DNA of 64,000 nucleotides from Flavobacterium luteum (GTDB lineage: Bacteria; Bacteroidota; Bacteroidia; Flavobacteriales; Flavobacteriaceae). Of the stretch, positions 25,301 through 64,000 are shown piece by piece. Position 1 is the stretch's first letter, and each line of letters opens with the position of its first letter. The notes under the pieces are model-generated. The model searched no databases and was not told the DNA's origin. It was given only the letters and a program-made list of their open reading frames with translations. A program made the position numbers and the translations under genes. The stretch covers positions 682,001 to 746,000 of the forward strand of contig NZ_WAEM01000002.1 of NCBI RefSeq assembly GCF_008806775.1. Reading direction: 5' to 3'.

Positions 25301-28300
25301 TAGATAATAATTCGAATTTTAAAATTCGTTTTCGTTTTACTGGGCCAAATATGACAGAAGATTTAGGAAAGCGAGTAACCTTTAATAACATCGCTGTTGA
25401 TGGGGTAAAATTACCTCTATCATATCTTTCTCCTAATGTTTTTAGTGTGAGTGCTGCTATTGCAAATTTAGTGCCTTCAACAACAAGAGTTATGACTGGT
25501 TATAGTGTTTTCCCTAACTTACCTTCGGGCTTAACTTTGAATACTTCTTCTGGGATTATTTCAGGTACACCAATTGTAACTTCATTAGCATCAAATTATT
25601 TGGTCACGGGAACTTATGCAACAGGAACCGAAACTTTTAACATAAATATTACTGTTAAAGATATTGCACCTAGTTCTTTAAGTTATGCTTCTCCTAATAT
25701 ATTTACTAGAAATACAGGCATTAGTAATTTAACACCCACTTCATCTGGCGGATTAGTGGTAAGCTATAGTGTTTCTCCTAATTTACCTACAGGATTGTCT
25801 TTAGATATAACTACTGGTGAAATTTCAGGAATCCCAACAGTTCTTACTCCAGCTGCTACTTATACTATGACGGCTGTGAATTCAGGTGGGTCGACTTCGT
25901 TTGATGTCGTGATTACTGTCAATGATGTCGCGCCTTCGGCTCTTTCGTATGCTTCTCCGAATGTGTTTACTAAAAATAGTGCGATTGTTGCTTTAAATCC
26001 TTCTCTTAGTGGTGGTGCGGTGTTGAGTTATTCGATTAGTCCTGCTTTGCCTAGTGGGTTGTCATTTAATACTTCTAGTGGAGTGATTTCTGGAACGCCT
26101 ACGGCTATTGCTGGTGCTGCTACTTATACCGTTATTGCTGTTAATTCGGGTGGATCGACTTCGTTTGATGTTGTGATTACTGTGAATGATGTTGCGCCTT
26201 CGTTACTTTCGTATTCTTCTCCGAATGTGTTTACAAGAAATTCTGCGATTGTTGCTTTAAATCCTTCTGTTAGTGGTGGCGCGGTGTTGAGTTATACTAT
26301 TGCTCCTACTTTACCTGCTGGATTGTTTTTCAATACTTCTAGTGGGGTGATTTCGGGAACGCCAACTGCTATTGCTGGTGGTGCTACTTATACCGTTACT
26401 GCTGTTAATTCGGGTGGATCGACTTCGTTTGGTGTTGTGATTACTGTGAATGATGTTGCGCCTTCGTTACTTTCGTATTCTTCTCCAAATGTGTTTACTA
26501 AAAATTCTGCGATTGTTGCTTTAAATCCAACTGTTAGTGGTGGTGCGGTGTTGAGTTATTCGATTAGTCCCGCTTTGCCTAGTGGCTTGTCGTTTAATAC
26601 TGCTAGTGGTGTCATTTCTGGAACGCCTACGGCTATTGCTAGTAGTGCTACTTATACCGTTATTGCTGTTAATTCGGGTGGATCGACTTCGTTTGATGTT
26701 GTGATTACGGTGAATGATGTTGCGCCTTCGTTACTTTCGTATTCTTCTCCAAATGTGTTTACTAAAAATTCTGCGATTGTTGCTTTAAATCCAACTGTTA
26801 GTGGTGGTGCAGTGTTGAGTTATTCGATTAGTCCCGCTTTGCCTAGCGGGTTATCGTTTAATACTGCTAGTGGAGTGATTTCTGGAACGCCTACGGCTAT
26901 TGCTAGTAGTGCTACTTATACTGTGACGGCTATCAATTCTGGTGGGTCGACTTCGTTTGAAGTGGTGATTACTGTGAATGATGTGGCGCCTTCGGCTCTT
27001 TCGTATGCGTCTCCAAATGTGTTTACTAAAAATTCTGCGATTGTTGCTTTAAATCCAACTGTTAGTGGTGGTGCAGTGTTGAGTTATTCGATTAGTCCCG
27101 CTTTGCCTAGCGGGTTATCGTTTAATACTGCTAGTGGAGTGATTTCTGGAACGCCTACTGCTATTGCTGGTCTTGGTACTTATATCGTGACGGCTGTTAA
27201 TTCGGGTGGGTCGACTTCCTTTGATGTTGTGATTACTGTCAATGATGTCGCGCCTTCGGCTCTTTCGTATTCTTCTCCGAATGTGTTTACTAAAAATAGT
27301 GCGATTGTTGCTTTAAATCCTAGTGTTAGTGGTGGTGCGGTGTTGAGTTATTCGATTAGTCCCGCTTTGCCTAGTGGGTTGTCATTTAATACTGCTAGTG
27401 GAGTCATTTCTGGAACGCCTACGGCTATTGCTGGTGCTGCTACTTATACCTTGACAGCTTTGAATTCAGGCGGGTCGACTTCGTTTGGTGTGGTAATTAC
27501 TGTGAATGATGTTGCGCCTTCGTTACTTTCGTATGCGTCTCCGAATGTGTTTACTAAAAATTCTGCGATTGTTGCTTTAAATCCTTCTGTTAGTGGTGGC
27601 GCGGTGTTGAGTTATACTATTAGTCCTGCTTTGCCTGCTGGATTATCTTTTAATACGACTAGTGGGGTGATTTCGGGAGTGCCTTTTGTTACAAGTCCAA
27701 CAACCATTTACACAGTGAATGCAGCGAATTCTGGTGGGTCGACTTCTTTTGATGCGGTGATTACCGTGAATGATGTTGCGCCAAATACATTTAGTTATCC
27801 TTCACCAAATGTTTTTACTAAAAATAGTGCGATTGTTGCTTTAAATCCTAGTGTTAGTGGTGGTGCGGTGTTGAGTTATTCGATTAGTCCCGCTTTGCCT
27901 AGTGGGTTGTCATTTAATACTGCTAGTGGAGTGATTTCTGGAACGCCTACGGCTATTGCTGGTGCTGCTACTTATACCGTTATTGCTGTTAATTCGGGTG
28001 GATCGACTTCGTTTGATGTTGTGATTACTGTGAATGATGTTGCGCCATCGACTCTTTCGTATTCTTCTCCGAATGTGTTTACTAAAAATAGTGCGATTGT
28101 TGCTTTAAATCCTAGTGTTAGTGGTGGTGGGGTGTTGAGTTATTCGATTAGTCCCGCTTTGCCTAGTGGGTTGTCATTTAATACTGCTAGTGGAGTGATT
28201 TCTGGAACGCCTACGGCTATTGCTGGTGCTGCTACTTATACCGTTATTGCTGTTAATTCGGGTGGATCGACTTCGTTTGAAGTGGTGATTACTGTGAATG

Positions 28301-31300
28301 ATGTGGCGCCTTCGGCTCTTTCGTATGCGTCTCCAAATGTGTTTACTAAAAATTCTGCGATTGTTGCTTTAAATCCTAGTGTTAGTGGTGGTGCAGTGTT
28401 GAGTTATTCGATTAGTCCTGCTTTGCCTAGCGGGTTATCGTTTAATACTGCTAGTGGTGTGATTTCTGGAACGCCTACGGCTATTGCTGGTGCTGCTACT
28501 TATACTGTGACGGCTTTTAATTCGGGTGGATCGACTTCGTTTGATGTTGTGATTACGGTGAATGATGTTGCGCCTTCGGCTCTTTCGTATGCGTCTCCGA
28601 ATGTATTTACTAAAAATAGTGCGATTGTTGCTTTAAATCCTAGTGTTAGTGGTGGTGCGGTGTTGAGCTATGCTATTAGTCCTGCTTTGCCTAGTGGGTT
28701 GTCATTTAATACTTCTAGTGGAGTGATTTCTGGAACGCCTACGGCTATTGCTGGTGCTGCTACTTATACCGTTATTGCTGTTAATTCGGGTGGATCGACT
28801 TCGTTTGATGTTGTGATTACGGTGAATGATGTTGCGCCTTCGTTACTTTCGTATTCTTCTCCAAATGTGTTTACTAGAAATAGTGCGATTGTTGCTTTAA
28901 ATCCAACTGTTAGTGGTGGTGCGGTGTTGAGTTATTCGATTAGTCCTGCTTTGCCTAGTGGCTTGTCGTTTAATACTGCTAGTGGTGTCATTTCTGGAAC
29001 GCCTACGGCTATTGCTAGTAGTGCTACTTATACTGTGACGGCTATCAATTCTGGTGGGTCGACTTCGTTTGAAGTGGTGATTACTGTGAATGATGTGGCG
29101 CCTTCGGCTCTTTCGTATGCGTCTCCAAATGTGTTTACTAAAAATTCTGCGATTGTTGCTTTAAATCCTAGTGTTAGTGGTGGTGCAGTGTTGAGTTATT
29201 CGATTAGTCCTGCTTTGCCTAGCGGGTTATCGTTTAATACTGCTAGTGGAGTGATTTCTGGAACGCCTACGGCTATTGCTGGTCTTGGTACTTATATCGT
29301 GACGGCTGTTAATTCAGGTGGATCGACTTCGTTTGGTGTGGTAATTACTGTGAATGATGTTGCGCCTTCGGCTCTTTCGTATGCGTCTCCGAATGTATTT
29401 ACTAAAAATAGTGCGATTGTTGCTTTAAATCCTAGTGTTAGTGGTGGTGCGGTGTTGAGCTATGCTATTAGTCCTGCTTTGCCTAGTGGGTTGTCATTTA
29501 ATACTGCTAGTGGAGTGATTTCTGGAACGCCTACGGCTATTGCTGGTGCTGCTACTTATACCGTTATTGCTGTTAATTCGGGTGGATCGACTTCGTTTGA
29601 TGTTGTGATTACGGTGAATGATGTTGCGCCTTCGTTACTTTCGTATTCTTCTCCAAATGTGTTTACTAAAAATTCTGCGATTGTTGCTTTAAATCCAACT
29701 GTTAGTGGTGGTGCGGTGTTGAGTTATTCGATTAGTCCTGCTTTGCCTAGTGGCTTGTCGTTTAATACTGCTAGTGGTGTCATTTCTGGAACGCCTACGG
29801 CTATTGCTAGTAGTGCTACTTATACTGTGACGGCTTTTAATTCGGGTGGATCGACTTCGTTTGATGTTGTGATTACGGTGAATGATGTTGCGCCATCGAA
29901 TCTTTCTTATCCGTCTCCGAATGTGTTTACTAAAAATAGTGCGATTGTCGCTTCAAATCCTAGTGTTAGTGGTGGTGCAGTGTTGAGCTATGCTATTAGT
30001 CCTGCTTTGCCTAGCGGGTTATCGTTTAATACTGCTAGTGGAGTGATTTCTGGAACGCCTACGGCTATTGCTGGTGCTGCTACTTATACTGTGACGGCTT
30101 TTAATTCGGGTGGATCGACTTCGTTTGATGTTGTGATTACTGTGAATGATGTTGCGCCATCGACTCTTTCGTATTCTTCTCCGAATGTGTTTACTAGAAA
30201 TAGTGCGATTGTTGCTTTAAATCCTAGTGTTAGTGGTGGTGGGGTGTTGAGTTATTCGATTAGTCCTGCTTTGCCTAGCGGGTTATCGTTTAATACTGCT
30301 AGTGGAGTGATTTCTGGAACGCCTACGGCTATTGCTGGTCTTGGTACTTATATCGTGACGGCTGTTAATTCAGGTGGATCGACTTCGTTTGATGTTGTGA
30401 TTACTGTCAATGATGTCGCGCCTTCGTTACTTTCGTATTCTTCTCCGAATGTGTTTACTAAAAATAGTGCGATTGTTGCTTTAAATCCTAGTGTTAGTGG
30501 TGGTGCAGTGTTGAGTTATGCTATTAGTCCTGCTTTGCCTAGTGGGTTGTCTTTGAATACTGCTAGTGGTGTGATTTCGGGAGTGCCTTTTGTTACAAGT
30601 CCAACAACCATTTACACAGTGAATGCAGCGAATTCTGGTGGGTCGACTTCTTTTGATGCGGTGATTACCGTGAATGATGTTGCGCCAAATACATTTAGTT
30701 ATCCTTCACCAAATGTTTTTACTAAAAATACAAATATTATAAATTTATCTCCTTCTATTTCAGGAATTGTATTAAGCTATAGCATTGCTCCTACTTTACC
30801 TGCTGGATTGTTTTTCAATACTTCTAGTGGGGTGATTTCGGGAACGCCAACTGCTATTGCTGGTGGTGCTACTTATACCGTTACTGCTGTTAATTCGGGT
30901 GGGTCGACTTCCTTTGATGTTGTGATTACTGTCAATGATGTCGCGCCTTCGGCTCTTTCGTATGCTTCTCCGAATGTGTTTACTGTAGGAAATAGTATTT
31001 TAGAATTAATTCCTACTTATGAAGGAATTATTAATAATTTTAATATTGTTCCAGATTTGCCAAATGGTTTATCAATAGATGCTTCAACTGGTATTATTTC
31101 TGGTATTCCTAAAACAGATTCAGAAACAAAATCGTATATAATTACAGGGACTAATACTAATGGTAGTACTTCATTTGAGATAGAAATTAAGGTTGATAAT
31201 ACTTTAACTATTGATACTAATAATTTGAAAAATATTAAAGTTTTCCCTAATCCTTTTAATGAAATACTTTTTTTATCAGGTATATCAAGTTCCATATCAT

Positions 31301-34798: not shown

Positions 34799-36490
34799 TT
34801 ATTGTATGTTAAGAATTTGTTCTAATATCTTTATTGTAATTAAATATGTTGGCTTCACTCCTGTGGTTCCAAGTCCGCCTGAAGCTAATGTACTTCCTGT
34901 TTCTAATGGGTTATCCGAAGCATAATAAGCGTATCTCACTTTAACATCTTGATTGATGCTTTTTCTAATTTTCGATGCTGATTGGATTGCTTTTTGATAG
35001 TAAGCACCTTCCATTTCTAGTCCTATAACTCCCCATGTAGATTCATGGAAAAACTTTAGTAAGTCTTTATTTTGTAATGAAGTGCCTAAAACGGTTACCA
35101 TTGGCCCAGCGAATACATCAATATTATTTCCTTCTAACATTTCTTTTGTTAATTCGTTTTCAAAAGTATAGTTATCACCTGTTCCTTCATTAATATGGGC
35201 TGATGGAATCATAATATCTCCTTTTCCTCCTTGCAGAATACCCGCTTTTCCCATTATAGAAACTGATGCTACATTCATAAAGACTTTTTCTTCTTTTGTT
35301 TCTTGAAAAGGCTTTAATAATTCATCTATTGTTTCATATGCTTGTTCCCCAAACGCATAATCCATAACAATTAATACCGGTTTTGATTCGCCAAGTTTTG
35401 CTGTTGGAAAAGCGGATTTTTTTAAATCTATTTTTGCGGTGTCAAATATTTGAACATCGATATTTGTTCCTGAAAAATCGGGTAAAGAAATCATGCCGTA
35501 TTGTTTGGCAAACTCCTCTACTTTATTTCGTAAATCATGAGCGCCTGATTTGCTTAGTTCTTCATATATAAAGAAATCCGTTTGGTCTTTGAATTTTGTT
35601 TTTAAAACATGAGTAGCAAAAACTGAATTCATGACACTGTGCATATTGGCACTAATGATATGAATCGGTCGATCTAATAGTTGATTTTGCTTTAAAACTT
35701 CTTTTATGTTTGTTGCCCAAATTTCACCATGAATATGATGTCCTAATCGTTCTCTTAAAACAGGACTAAAAGTAATTGTTCGTTTATCATTACCTATAAT
35801 TTCTTCTAATGCCAATTTTCCTAACCAATAAATAATGTGAAGAAAACGGTCTGGCTTTTCAGTTGTTCCAAAAGCATCATAAATATCTAATACTTCTGAA
35901 AAAGTTCTTCCAAGAATATTAGCGGCATGAGAAATGGTTTTCTCTTTATCAATTAATGTGAGCTTTTTATCTTGAAAAACGGCTTCTTCCAATTTTTGCC
36001 AATCCCTAGTTACTTCTCCGCTTTCATCAATTAAAATTCTGTCTTTTATTTTGTGAGATTCTATGAAAATAAAAGTCAAATGCGTCAAAATATCATAAAT
36101 ATCTGATCGTCCTCTGGTAATTTCAATATTCATTTGTTCGTCATCAATTCGATAACAATTCCGTCTTCTTTTTGGTGGCACTATTGCTTTAAAATGTGAT
36201 TTTGAATATCCTTCATCTGAAGTTAAATTGATGAATCTACATTGCTCTATCCCAACCGGAAGCCTTTCAATTACATATAAAAGTCCGCTTAATTCTACTT
36301 TTTCCTCTGCAATTGTTCCATATATCTCTGGGCGTAATGATAATAATGCTTCTCTTAATGTTTCTCCTGAAACACCCATAGGTTTATAGAATCCTCTATT
36401 GAACAAATGGCGCATGGTAATGTACATTTTTTCAACAGCGCTAGAAGACTCTTGAGCTCTTGATCTTACTATATTTTTAATTTCTTTCAT
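34799..36490 (-). CDS. conserved Bacteroidetes protein, DUF6909-like, with a nucleoside-phosphorylase-like C terminus
   Basis: A 563-residue soluble protein that I associate, with moderate certainty, with the DUF6909 family. No signal peptide or membrane helix is visible. The C-terminal third contains GPMVTVLGTSL near residue 465 and GLEMEGAYYQKAI near 495. The latter resembles the MEG motif that binds the ribose of substrate in purine nucleoside phosphorylase, MTA nucleosidase and AMP nucleosidase. The N-terminal half has no motif I recognise. It sits in the wzz-rfb run eight bases from the Wzz-like gene. An enzymatic role on a nucleoside or nucleotide is inferred only. Confidence 0.6.
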   Translation of the reverse strand: MKEIKNIVRSRAQESSSAVEKMYITMRHLFNRGFYKPMGVSGETLREALLSLRPEIYGTIAEEKVELSGLLYVIERLPVGIEQCRFINLTSDEGYSKSHFKAIVPPKRRRNCYRIDDEQMNIEITRGRSDIYDILTHLTFIFIESHKIKDRILIDESGEVTRDWQKLEEAVFQDKKLTLIDKEKTISHAANILGRTFSEVLDIYDAFGTTEKPDRFLHIIYWLGKLALEEIIGNDKRTITFSPVLRERLGHHIHGEIWATNIKEVLKQNQLLDRPIHIISANMHSVMNSVFATHVLKTKFKDQTDFFIYEELSKSGAHDLRNKVEEFAKQYGMISLPDFSGTNIDVQIFDTAKIDLKKSAFPTAKLGESKPVLIVMDYAFGEQAYETIDELLKPFQETKEEKVFMNVASVSIMGKAGILQGGKGDIMIPSAHINEGTGDNYTFENELTKEMLEGNNIDVFAGPMVTVLGTSLQNKDLLKFFHESTWGVIGLEMEGAYYQKAIQSASKIRKSINQDVKVRYAYYASDNPLETGSTLASGGLGTTGVKPTYLITIKILEQILNIQ

Positions 36491-62300: not shown

Positions 62301-62754
62301 AGGTCAAGGAGGAGAAAATGGAGAGAATGGGCAAGATGGCGAAGGTGATGCAAAAGCTATTTTAGAAATTTATAAAGAGCAAAAGCAGCTTAGAGAAGCC
62401 TTACAGAATGAGCTTAATAAAAAAGGAATTGGCGGAAACGGTCAGGGGACTCTTGAGCAAATGAAAGATATTGAAAAGCAATTATTAAATAAAGGTTTTA
62501 AAAATGAAGTACTGCAAAAAGTGCTTAATGTGAAACAAGAATTACTAAAATTAGAGAAAGCCATTCAAGAGCAAGGAGAAGAACAAAAGCGTCAATCTCA
62601 AATCAATAAGAAAGAGTATAATAATCAAATTAAAGCTTTGCCAGACAACTTACAAGATTATTTAAACAGCATCGAGATTTTAAACAGACAAAGCTTACCT
62701 TTGCGCTCCAATTTTGAACAAAAGGTTCAAGAATATTTTAAAAGTAATGATTAG
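59386..62754 (+). CDS. DUF4175 family large membrane-anchored coiled-coil protein
   Basis: A 1122-residue protein. Two membrane helices lie near residues 26-72 and a third near 150-170 (KFLPLAILPILFFAFFYLSG). A beta-rich region follows, then a very long charged coiled-coil (about 500-760; many K, E, D, Q). A low-complexity GKGEG/GEG-rich stretch near 905-985 precedes a helical C terminus. This order matches the DUF4175 proteins that precede ybeY in Flavobacteria. Function unknown. The only suitable start is TTG at 59386. Its stop overlaps ybeY by eight bases, suggesting coupling. Confidence 0.85.
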   Translation: MKSLESSSAIYQKLEAFIKKYYTNELLKGIIFFLGLGLLYFLLTLFVEYFLWLKPMGRLFLFWAFIGVEVYLLLRFIGFPIFKLFKLQKGIDYKEASTIIGNHFSEVSDKLTNFLQLSENKNQSELLLASIDQKANALQPIPFGNAISFNSNKKFLPLAILPILFFAFFYLSGNSNLISQSLNRVVHFNSAFTPPAPFKFIVINDNLQTEQNKDFTLIVKTEGKVIPENALIFIDDESYFMESTKAGEFRFKVEKPISNIAFHIEANAISSPEYELNVITVPSIANFEMQLNFPSYLNKKAEIIKGTGNAVLPEGTRVTWIMNTQATQNVDWTDLKLNFPFSKTENTFVLSKTISQNTEYQIRTSNEKVKHYEKLNYQISVIKDQFPTITINNAPDSLKVDKSYVLGQLSDDNGLSKLFVVYYEKDKPQTARRGAIAIKKANYDQFVFAFPSTLPVVEGISYDYYFEVFDNDAPHHFKSTKSAVFSNRIVTEQEKENQVLQQQNSNINSLQKSLKNQNKQIFELEKLQKSGKEKDNLEFKDQQKVNDFIKRQKQQDEMMKEFAEKMKDNLEKLKTDKNDDFKKELEKRLENADKDLEKNQKLLDELKELNDKIKNEELLEKLDQFKQNSKNQIKNLEQLVELTKKYYVEKKAEQIADKLDKLSEKQDKLSDNEKENKTDKQEEINKEFDAIQEELKDLDKENKELKSPIDIPKDAEKEKSIDEDLKKASEELQKENKSKAKPKQKSASKKMKEMSMKMTESMESGEMEELEEDVKMLRQILDNLLAFSFSQEDLMTEFKGLKRGSPSFNKNLKIQQNLKQQFKHVDDSLFAMSLRNPKIAENITKEIGNVHYNIEKAIENLVDAQITKGLSHQQYTISASNKLADFLSDILNNMQMSMSKMGSGKPKPGKGEGSGIQLPDIIKKQQGLGEKMKEGMKKGAKPGEGKKPGEGNKPGDGEKGKSGKDGKSGNGEGQGGENGENGQDGEGDAKAILEIYKEQKQLREALQNELNKKGIGGNGQGTLEQMKDIEKQLLNKGFKNEVLQKVLNVKQELLKLEKAIQEQGEEQKRQSQINKKEYNNQIKALPDNLQDYLNSIEILNRQSLPLRSNFEQKVQEYFKSND

Positions 62755-63172
62755 TTTTAATTACGAAACCGAGTTTGAGTTGCCAAATGAAAGTGAAATT
62801 TCAAATTGGTTATCTAACGTTATACAAAGCGAAAATAAGAAGGAAGGTGATATTAATTATATATTCTGCGATGACAACTATTTAGTTGAAATAAACCAAC
62901 AATATTTAGCTCATGACACTTTAACAGATATTATTAGCTTTGATTATTCTGTAGGAAACGAACTACATGGAGATGTTTTTATTTCTATTGAAAGAGTTCG
63001 TGAAAACGCACAAGAATTTAAAGTTTCTTTAGAAGAAGAATTGCAGCGAGTAATGGTGCATGGAATTTTACACTACTGCGGATATAAAGACAAGTCGCAT
63101 GACGATGAGTTGTTAATGCGAGAAAAAGAAAATGAAAAAATTAAATTGTTCCACGTGAAACAAATCAAATAG
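62747..63172 (+). CDS. ybeY: endoribonuclease YbeY (rRNA maturation factor)
   Basis: A 141-residue protein starting MISFNYETEFELPNESEIS. The family motif appears as VMVHGILHYCGYKDKSHDDE near residue 103, that is HxxxH followed by a displaced third histidine (the usual form is HGxLHLxGYDH). DIISFDYSVGNELHGDVFIS near 57 is also conserved. The protein matures rRNA 3' ends and acts in ribosome quality control. An in-frame start at 62714 would lie deep in the DUF4175 gene; ATG 62747 gives an eight-base overlap. Its last codons (FHVKQIK) overlap a parS site. Confidence 0.93.
   Translation: MISFNYETEFELPNESEISNWLSNVIQSENKKEGDINYIFCDDNYLVEINQQYLAHDTLTDIISFDYSVGNELHGDVFISIERVRENAQEFKVSLEEELQRVMVHGILHYCGYKDKSHDDELLMREKENEKIKLFHVKQIK
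63147..63162 (+). promoter_or_regulatory. parS centromere site 1 (inside the ybeY 3' end)
   Basis: TGTTCCACGTGAAACA matches the ParB binding consensus at all 16 positions. It encodes the terminal LFHVKQ of YbeY, so coding and segregation functions overlap here. Confidence 0.92.
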
Positions 63173-63196
63173 TTTTCAAAACAAAAAAGTTATAAT

Positions 63197-63212
63197 TGTT
63201 TCACGTGGAACA
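63197..63212 (-). promoter_or_regulatory. parS centromere site 2 (between ybeY and mnmG)
   Basis: TGTTTCACGTGGAACA on the plus strand is the exact reverse complement of site 1, 50 bases further on. The two sites face opposite ways and lie in the mnmG leader, 25 bases before its ATG. Confidence 0.92.
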
Positions 63213-63236: not shown

Positions 63237-64000
63237 ATGTTTCAAGATCTTTATGATGTGATTGTGGTAGGGGCAGGTCATGCAGGTTCAGAAGCGGCTG
63301 CAGCTTCAGCTAATTTGGGCGCAAAAACCTTGTTGGTAACTATGAGTTTGCAAAACATTGCTCAAATGTCTTGTAATCCTGCTATGGGAGGAATTGCAAA
63401 AGGACAAATCGTTCGGGAAATTGATGCGCTTGGCGGTTATTCGGGAATTGTTTCTGATAGAACAGCTATTCAATTTAAAATGTTGAATAAATCCAAAGGA
63501 CCAGCAATGTGGTCGCCTAGGGTTCAAAGTGACCGAATGCGTTTTGCTGAAGAATGGCGATTGATGTTAGAGCAAACTCCAAATCTTGATTTTTATCAAG
63601 AAATGGTAAAAGGGTTAATTATTGAAAACGGAAAAATAAAAGGAATTACTACGTCATTGGGAGTTACAATTAAAGCCAAATCGGTTGTTTTAACGAACGG
63701 GACTTTCTTAAATGGATTAATTCATATTGGAGAAAAACAGTTTGGTGGAGGTAGAGCCGGCGAAAGTGCTGCATACGGAATAACCGAAGACTTGGTTAAA
63801 GCAGGTTTTGAATCGGGTAGAATGAAAACCGGAACACCGCCAAGGGTTGATGGCCGTTCGTTAGATTATTCGAAAATGAATGAAGAGAAGGGCGATGCTA
63901 AACCAGATAAATTTTCTTATTCAGATGTTACCATTCCATTAGTTCATCAAAAATCGTGTCATATGACCTATACTTCTTTAGAGGTTCATGACATTTTAAG
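63237..64000 (+). CDS. mnmG: tRNA uridine-5-carboxymethylaminomethyl modification enzyme MnmG (partial, N-terminal 254 codons)
   Basis: ATG at 63237 opens a frame that runs to the window end. YDVIVVGAGHAGSEAA (residues 6-21) is the FAD-binding dinucleotide motif. NPAMGGIAKGQIVREID near 46 and GRMKTGTPPRVDGRSL near 198 are MnmG (GidA) signatures. With MnmE it installs the cmnm5 group on U34 of several tRNAs. The gene is frequently origin-linked in bacteria. The C-terminal half is outside the window. Confidence 0.96.
   Translation, partial: MFQDLYDVIVVGAGHAGSEAAAASANLGAKTLLVTMSLQNIAQMSCNPAMGGIAKGQIVREIDALGGYSGIVSDRTAIQFKMLNKSKGPAMWSPRVQSDRMRFAEEWRLMLEQTPNLDFYQEMVKGLIIENGKIKGITTSLGVTIKAKSVVLTNGTFLNGLIHIGEKQFGGGRAGESAAYGITEDLVKAGFESGRMKTGTPPRVDGRSLDYSKMNEEKGDAKPDKFSYSDVTIPLVHQKSCHMTYTSLEVHDIL

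Follow-up and report, generated by a model that had tools for sequence, protein, structure and literature searches.

The ybeY-mnmG locus and its palindromic sites

The window, by which we mean the whole stretch of 64,000 nucleotides that was analysed, breaks off within mnmG, which follows ybeY on the same strand, and two 16-bp parS-type sites lie at the junction of the two genes (Table 1). Sites 1 and 2 are exact reverse complements of each other, with starts 50 bp apart and 34 bp between them, and symmetrical flanks extend each to an 18-mer of the form TTG...CAA. Site 2 is placed 24 bp past the ybeY stop and 24 bp ahead of the mnmG ATG. A preliminary description of the locus had reported the distance, the mutual reversal and the flanks, as well as the setting of FHVKQ in the YbeY end LFHVKQIK by site 1 in the ybeY frame, and all of these were borne out. 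It had also called both consensus matches perfect, which is correct for the degenerate form, as the core is exact in each, but not for the B. subtilis parS palindrome TGTTTCACGTGAAACA, of which both sites are one-base variants with a single mismatch each. Its "inverted orientation" is true of sites 1 and 2, but rests on one base pair and is no rule across the genus: among 153 adjacent upstream site pairs, 19 are opposed (13 plus-minus, 6 minus-plus), 34 point in one direction, and in 100 at least one site is symmetrical. As the near-palindrome differs from its reverse by one base pair and orientations are mixed, we rejected site orientation as a meaningful feature.

Table 1. Features of the locus and of related genes elsewhere in the genome (unprefixed positions refer to the window; C22 is the contig that carries the locus)
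Feature	Position	Strand	Remarks
ybeY (rRNA maturation RNase)	62747-63172	+	TIGR00043, 107 bits against a cut-off of 45; protein ends ...KLFHVKQIK
parS site 1	63147-63162	+	TGTTCCACGTGAAACA; within the ybeY frame, specifying FHVKQ close to the end of YbeY; core GTTYCACGTGRAAC exact
parS site 2	63197-63212	+	TGTTTCACGTGGAACA; intergenic between ybeY and mnmG
mnmG (gidA)	63237-63998 in the window; stop at C22:747108	+	TIGR00136 above cut-off for the whole gene; partial match in the window
Third core site	C22:747110-747125		TGTTTCACGTGGAACG; beyond the window's end, 1 bp past the mnmG stop
dnaA	C22:14.2 kb		Same contig as the parS locus
parA-like gene and parB	C38, about 158.5-160.2 kb		Other contig; parB directly after the parA-like gene
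ParA-like ATPase	L019:8550-9314		Directly upstream of parB; Pfam AAA_31 and CbiA above cut-off

Scanning the whole genome (3,413,843 bases, or 3.41 Mb, in 41 contigs) for the exact core returned three copies, all at mnmG, and none of a control pattern. The dispersed parS-like matches that the preliminary description had proposed to look for did not appear, since every exact core site fell into one 2-kb locus; in the same line, all exact core sites were confined to one locus of less than 3 kb in 14 out of 14 genomes. Within the window, four matches with up to three mismatches to the B. subtilis 16-mer were found against 0.49 expected, a number reached in none of 100 shuffles. With up to two mismatches, the genome yielded, besides sites 1 and 2, only the third core site and a match at window position 36359; the reversed control gave four matches per strand, equal to the real pattern, so that the mismatch count at this level cannot by itself part signal from noise. 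The match at 36359-36374, TGTTTCTCCTGAAACA, has two core mismatches, is isolated and probably arose by chance.

Sites bracket mnmG across most of the family

We then compared 60 genomes of the same family, the window's own included, each from a different genus; mnmG was scorable in 58 of them (G004 has no mnmG and G032 a weak fragment only). In the 300 bp ahead of mnmG, 55 of the 58 loci carry a core site, never more than 142 bp from the start; in the 500 bp behind the stop, 55 of 58 do, and at 49 of these the distance is at most 31 bp. Both sides carry a core site at 53 loci, and none was found inside the gene. The upstream core is missing at mnmG in G014, G053 and G020. The downstream core is missing in G051, where an exact core follows 981 bp beyond the stop, in G034, whose mnmG is divided between contigs, with the site present on the other piece, and in G020. 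TGTTYCACGTGRAACA occurs 83 times across the 60 genomes, at most three times per genome and in 52 of them, with no occurrence of its reversed control, and wherever a family genome possesses 16-mer sites they surround mnmG, G020 excepted. Among the eight genomes without TGTTYCACGTGRAACA, four (G002, G030, G057 and G059) have a 14-bp core ahead of mnmG, the core of G014 and G053 is downstream only, and G004 and G032 are those without a scorable locus. In G053 (L071), both upstream copies read TGTTCCACATGGAACA, with CACATG for CACGTG; one is coding and one non-coding, and YbeY ends FHMEQ.

Conservation was tighter still within the genus, with a core site upstream of mnmG in 63 out of 63 genomes and downstream in all except G174 (62/63). 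The genus loci hold 2 to 10 sites, up to eight of them upstream and one or two after mnmG. Upstream spacing has its mode at 45-48 bp (50 of the 112 gaps below 70 bp, out of 153 gaps in total) and is never below 33 bp. Helical phasing of the array was weak (Rayleigh p of about 0.014, 0.029 and 0.046 for periods of 10, 10.5 and 11, with non-independent species) and is not claimed. The spacers differ in sequence from one another, which bears on tandem duplication as a source of the copies. In G192 (L347, 840-1275), two of the array's spacers are taken up by 13-14 bp minisatellites, repeated about 11 and 15 times.

Site number rose with genome size across 62 genus genomes (Spearman 0.72; G083, whose locus breaks off 368 bp ahead of mnmG, was dropped). 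Independent contrasts gave r = 0.43 at a nominal p of 0.0005, and the rank test of the contrasts was not significant (p = 0.27; 30 agreeing and 16 opposing, out of 61). On visual inspection, the trend is largely due to a single clade of large genomes, and the largest of the 60 family genomes have no more 16-mer sites than others. We therefore treat the relation within the genus as suggestive only.

Across the phylum, we examined the loci of 49 among 80 genomes with mnmG, the window's own locus excluded. An exact core was present at mnmG in 44 loci, or in 46 when one mismatch was allowed; G095, G122 and G072 had no site at mnmG even at this tolerance. Six of the 49 loci belong to the window's family. 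Of the 43 outside it, 40 have a site at mnmG with up to one mismatch: on both sides in 7 (6 if exact), upstream only in 13 and downstream only in 20, leaving 3 with none. The site is thus tied to mnmG across the sample, the two-sided bracket being mainly a family feature, and we rejected the bracket as a phylum-wide rule. One site lies within mnmG in G075, and the nearest site after the stop is 501 bp away in G080 and 305 bp in G088.

The YbeY tail follows the DNA site

YbeY was readable in 62 genus genomes and ends in or near FHV plus K or E, encoded by the site, in 61 of them; that of G157 stops before the site. In the family, 21 of 57 YbeYs have such a tail, and of the 36 without FHV, 34 retain the core site in intergenic position. 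FHV tails always coincided with a core site (21/21 in the family, 61/61 in the genus), in answer to the question of the preliminary description whether FHVK persists only alongside parS. In the genus, the tail valine codon is GTG in 61 of 61 cases, compared with 45 of 499 in the YbeY bodies, and the first tail histidine codon is CAC in 61 of 61, compared with 105 of 260, a comparison among related species whose p-values are overstated. In two other families, the site is read in another frame, giving the YbeY tails FVSRET (G099) and FVPRE (G091, with one mismatch). Frame switching and fixed codons together argue for selection on the DNA, which supports the view that the FHVKQ tail is a by-product of YbeY being translated through the site.

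On a tree of MnmG from 55 family members, the tail state changes at least four times; the tree omits G020 (no YbeY beside mnmG), G058 (broken gene) and G034 (split gene), and the FHM of G053 was counted as a tail. With the root set at the midpoint rather than inferred, the tree suggests an old YbeY tail with repeated losses. The suggestion that the parS sequence had been "taken into" ybeY accordingly found no support as a recent event.

That suggestion had been coupled to the statement that in many other bacteria parS overlaps the start of mnmG, yielding proteins that begin MFHVKH. Searching 84,980 species genomes for ATG followed by parS returned, among the matches listed, at least 117 stretches with 253 occurrences on both strands. 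Forty-five open reading frames of at least 80 amino acids were among them, and four align over nearly their full length with MnmG (L253, L280, L331 and L345). As judged by eye, the parS codons directly precede the MnmG N-terminus only in L280 and L345 among the matches listed, a later methionine seeming the likelier MnmG start in L253 and L331; L303 and L314 are partial MnmG matches. By eye, the reading frames listed also include ParA-like (L230, L280) and RsmG-like (L256) ones. MnmG proteins beginning MFHVKH therefore do exist, but are a narrow case and one among several (4 of the 45 frames listed).

Position relative to the replication origin

The sites are clustered, and in two closed relatives, G013 and G170, the sign of the GC skew switches no more than about 50 kb from the locus. 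The strand-corrected third-codon skew of G013 passes from -0.118 at 880-900 kb to +0.222 at 980-1000 kb, with no samples between and parS at 932-934 kb. In G170 it runs from -0.091 at 860-880 kb over +0.058 at 880-900 kb, a sample mixed between strands (+0.179 for plus-strand and +0.062 for minus-strand genes), to +0.097 at 905-925 kb, with parS at 901-903 kb. The window's own contig gives a weak signal. To the left of about 706 kb the skew is for the most part below zero, around 716-756 kb it ranges from near zero to +0.06, and at 746-766 kb it dips slightly below zero once more; parS is at 745-747 kb, roughly 20-40 kb from the minimum. Between 704 and 713 kb, the profile is disturbed by a long open reading frame of extreme skew. 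An open frame of 9 kb at about 22.3-31.4 kb of the window has extreme third-codon skew; a 264-bp tandem repeat in 19.5 copies occupies 25852-30984, and GC content rises to 0.43 and AT skew falls to -0.36 at 24-32 kb. This frame is probably a long repetitive gene that distorts the skew profile. The skew of G020 changes sign several times, probably reflecting a rearranged genome, and is unusable for locating the origin. DnaA-box clusters near parS did not exceed shuffled expectation in the window's contig or in G170.

In all 11 closed or nearly closed family genomes, dnaA and parB are remote from parS on the circle, the distances being 0.93 Mb or more for dnaA and 0.84 Mb or more for parB. From the skew of the two relatives, we infer that the locus adjoins the replication origin, with dnaA and parAB far away. 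A separation of this kind is also described for the flavobacterium Mariniflexile litorale, whose dnaA does not fit the skew and for which Ori-Finder predicts oriC beside mnmG (PMC11278836). It is not universal in the wider group, as the predicted origin of Melioribacter, a more distant relative, lies between dnaA and dnaN according to the part of PMC3534657 used here.

ParB, ParA and condensin

The genome has one ParB match (TIGR00180, above cut-off), and ParB is present in 60 of 60 family genomes, some with further ParB-family matches; the absence of ParB, which the preliminary description had named as evidence against a centromere, does not apply. Aligned with the Spo0J and Noc structures, this ParB shows GKKR in place of the Noc motif GKGQ and MGHGR in place of ERHAR. 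At the places of Caulobacter R173 and G201, an equivalence drawn by motif correspondence, it carries R and G. This pair marks parS-specific ParB, whereas Noc has Q173 and R201 (PMC7383237, in the part used here). A parS-type ParB is thus encoded in the same genome as the sites, with a ParA partner gene next to it, although no NCBIfam ParA model scored above cut-off for the ParA-like ATPase.

ScpA was found in none of 12 family genomes, the window's own included (E 0.001), with controls such as B. subtilis positive. Smc above cut-off was likewise found in 0 of 12, with sub-cut-off matches in all 12 (best 29 bits, cut-off 567). Smc-ScpAB, the partner of Smc-loading parS sites, was thus not detected in these 12 genomes in a search for Smc and ScpA, so that parS here may rely solely on ParA or work together with a different kind of condensin.

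Interpretation and alternative readings

We consider it very probable that the two sites, together with the third after mnmG, constitute the chromosomal parS centromere of this bacterium, and the locus would be best read as a ParB loading zone beside the origin. The single 2-kb locus for exact sites and the presence of ParB support the segregation centromere proposed in the preliminary description, the roles in segregation and at the origin being putative. By analogy with ParABS elsewhere, ParB dimers are predicted to bind the 16-bp sites; once loaded as CTP clamps, they would slide across ybeY-mnmG, and the resulting complex would be moved by ParA such that the origin region segregates first.

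The closeness of the sites to both ends of mnmG, seen in almost every family genome, is also what one would see if the palindromes were operators of a transcription factor controlling mnmG or ybeY. Against this speaks the closed genome G020, in which mnmG lies at 1277 kb without a site in 5.8 kb, and three sites lie at 997-999 kb. These sites (L109, 4506-6781) alternate with two genes, one for a methyltransferase and a short one lacking a Pfam match, next to an OmpH-like gene, and counterparts of the methyltransferase (54% identical) and the OmpH-like protein (41%) follow mnmG in the window's genome. In this one genome, the sites stayed in place while mnmG moved, which argues that they are not mnmG regulators. 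Operators would moreover hardly be expected in as many as eight copies ahead of a gene, with one or two more behind it, and the sequence is that of a ParB site in a family whose 60 genomes all encode ParB. We regard operators as highly improbable.

Even less credible is that FHVKQ is a functional YbeY peptide from whose selection the parS match merely follows. FHV is indeed kept in the same frame in 61 of 62 genus YbeYs, but the tail codons are fixed against the synonymous freedom elsewhere in the gene, the site is still present in most family members that lack FHV, tails in two families use another frame, and sites 2 and 3 are non-coding copies, so that this account is largely contradicted already. 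A Noc-type or other ParB-family protein, acting in nucleoid occlusion or on a mobile element, has next to no chance of being the factor that binds here. In its favour, the genome's ParB reaches 237 bits under the nucleoid_noc model, though this is below the cut-off of 315; its specificity residues, by contrast, are of ParB type. Noc sites are scattered over the chromosome, unlike the parS sites, which are confined to one locus.

Beyond the centromere itself, we offer with considerable doubt a wider scenario for the Bacteroidota. It posits an old centromere that works without Smc-ScpAB and is linked to mnmG at the origin, from which dnaA and parAB have departed. In the family it would form a ParB loading cassette bracketing mnmG; in those members of the genus with large genomes, it would have expanded to as many as ten sites, mostly 45-48 bp apart, so that loading capacity may rise with chromosome size. 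Its sequence would be imposed on the tail of the neighbouring protein. If this is right, parS beside mnmG would be a ready origin marker where dnaA misleads, and a compact centromere would be available for studying ParB-parS segregation without Smc-ScpAB. The genus offers a natural series of 2 to 10 sites, and in the YbeY tail a DNA site plainly determines the sequence of a protein, as its reading in two frames makes evident. Livny et al. 2007 is reportedly a survey of parS; among the literature matches listed, titles and abstract openings contained no description of the mnmG bracket or the YbeY tail.

Comparison with known systems

The locus resembles the ParABS systems of Bacillus, Caulobacter and Pseudomonas in its 16-bp palindrome with one-base variants, in clustering and, in two relatives, in lying near the skew origin, as well as in a ParB with parS-type residues and a parA-like gene adjoining parB. 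Unlike in those systems, parS is far from dnaA and parB in all 11 genomes in which this distance was measured, one to three 16-mers surround mnmG in the 52 of 60 family genomes that possess any (G020 excepted), and ScpA and above-cut-off Smc were each found in 0 of 12 genomes.

Mariniflexile litorale is a parallel in position, being a flavobacterium with dnaA off the skew origin and a predicted oriC beside mnmG; in the part of that article used here, the sole "pars" string belongs to "parsimony", and a figure legend labels mnmG as ter, contradicting the article's own text (PMC11278836). A Hi-C study of gut bacteria took clustered parS at skew shifts as origins, with supporting read coverage, found these not always at dnaA and reports no known condensin in its two Bacteroidetes (PMC10197239), the position of the cluster and the lack of a known condensin being akin to the present case. 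Its origin assignment is partly circular, as the skew shift nearer the parS cluster was chosen as the origin. It differs from the present work in that only 2 of its 12 species are Bacteroidetes and that its sections consulted here name no mnmG or YbeY context (PMC10197239).

Comparable to the YbeY tail are the proteins beginning MFHVKH, in which the same DNA is read in the same frame at gene starts, seen here for MnmG, ParA-like and RsmG-like proteins. In the window, by contrast, the site forms the C-terminus of the upstream gene, and mnmG begins after it.
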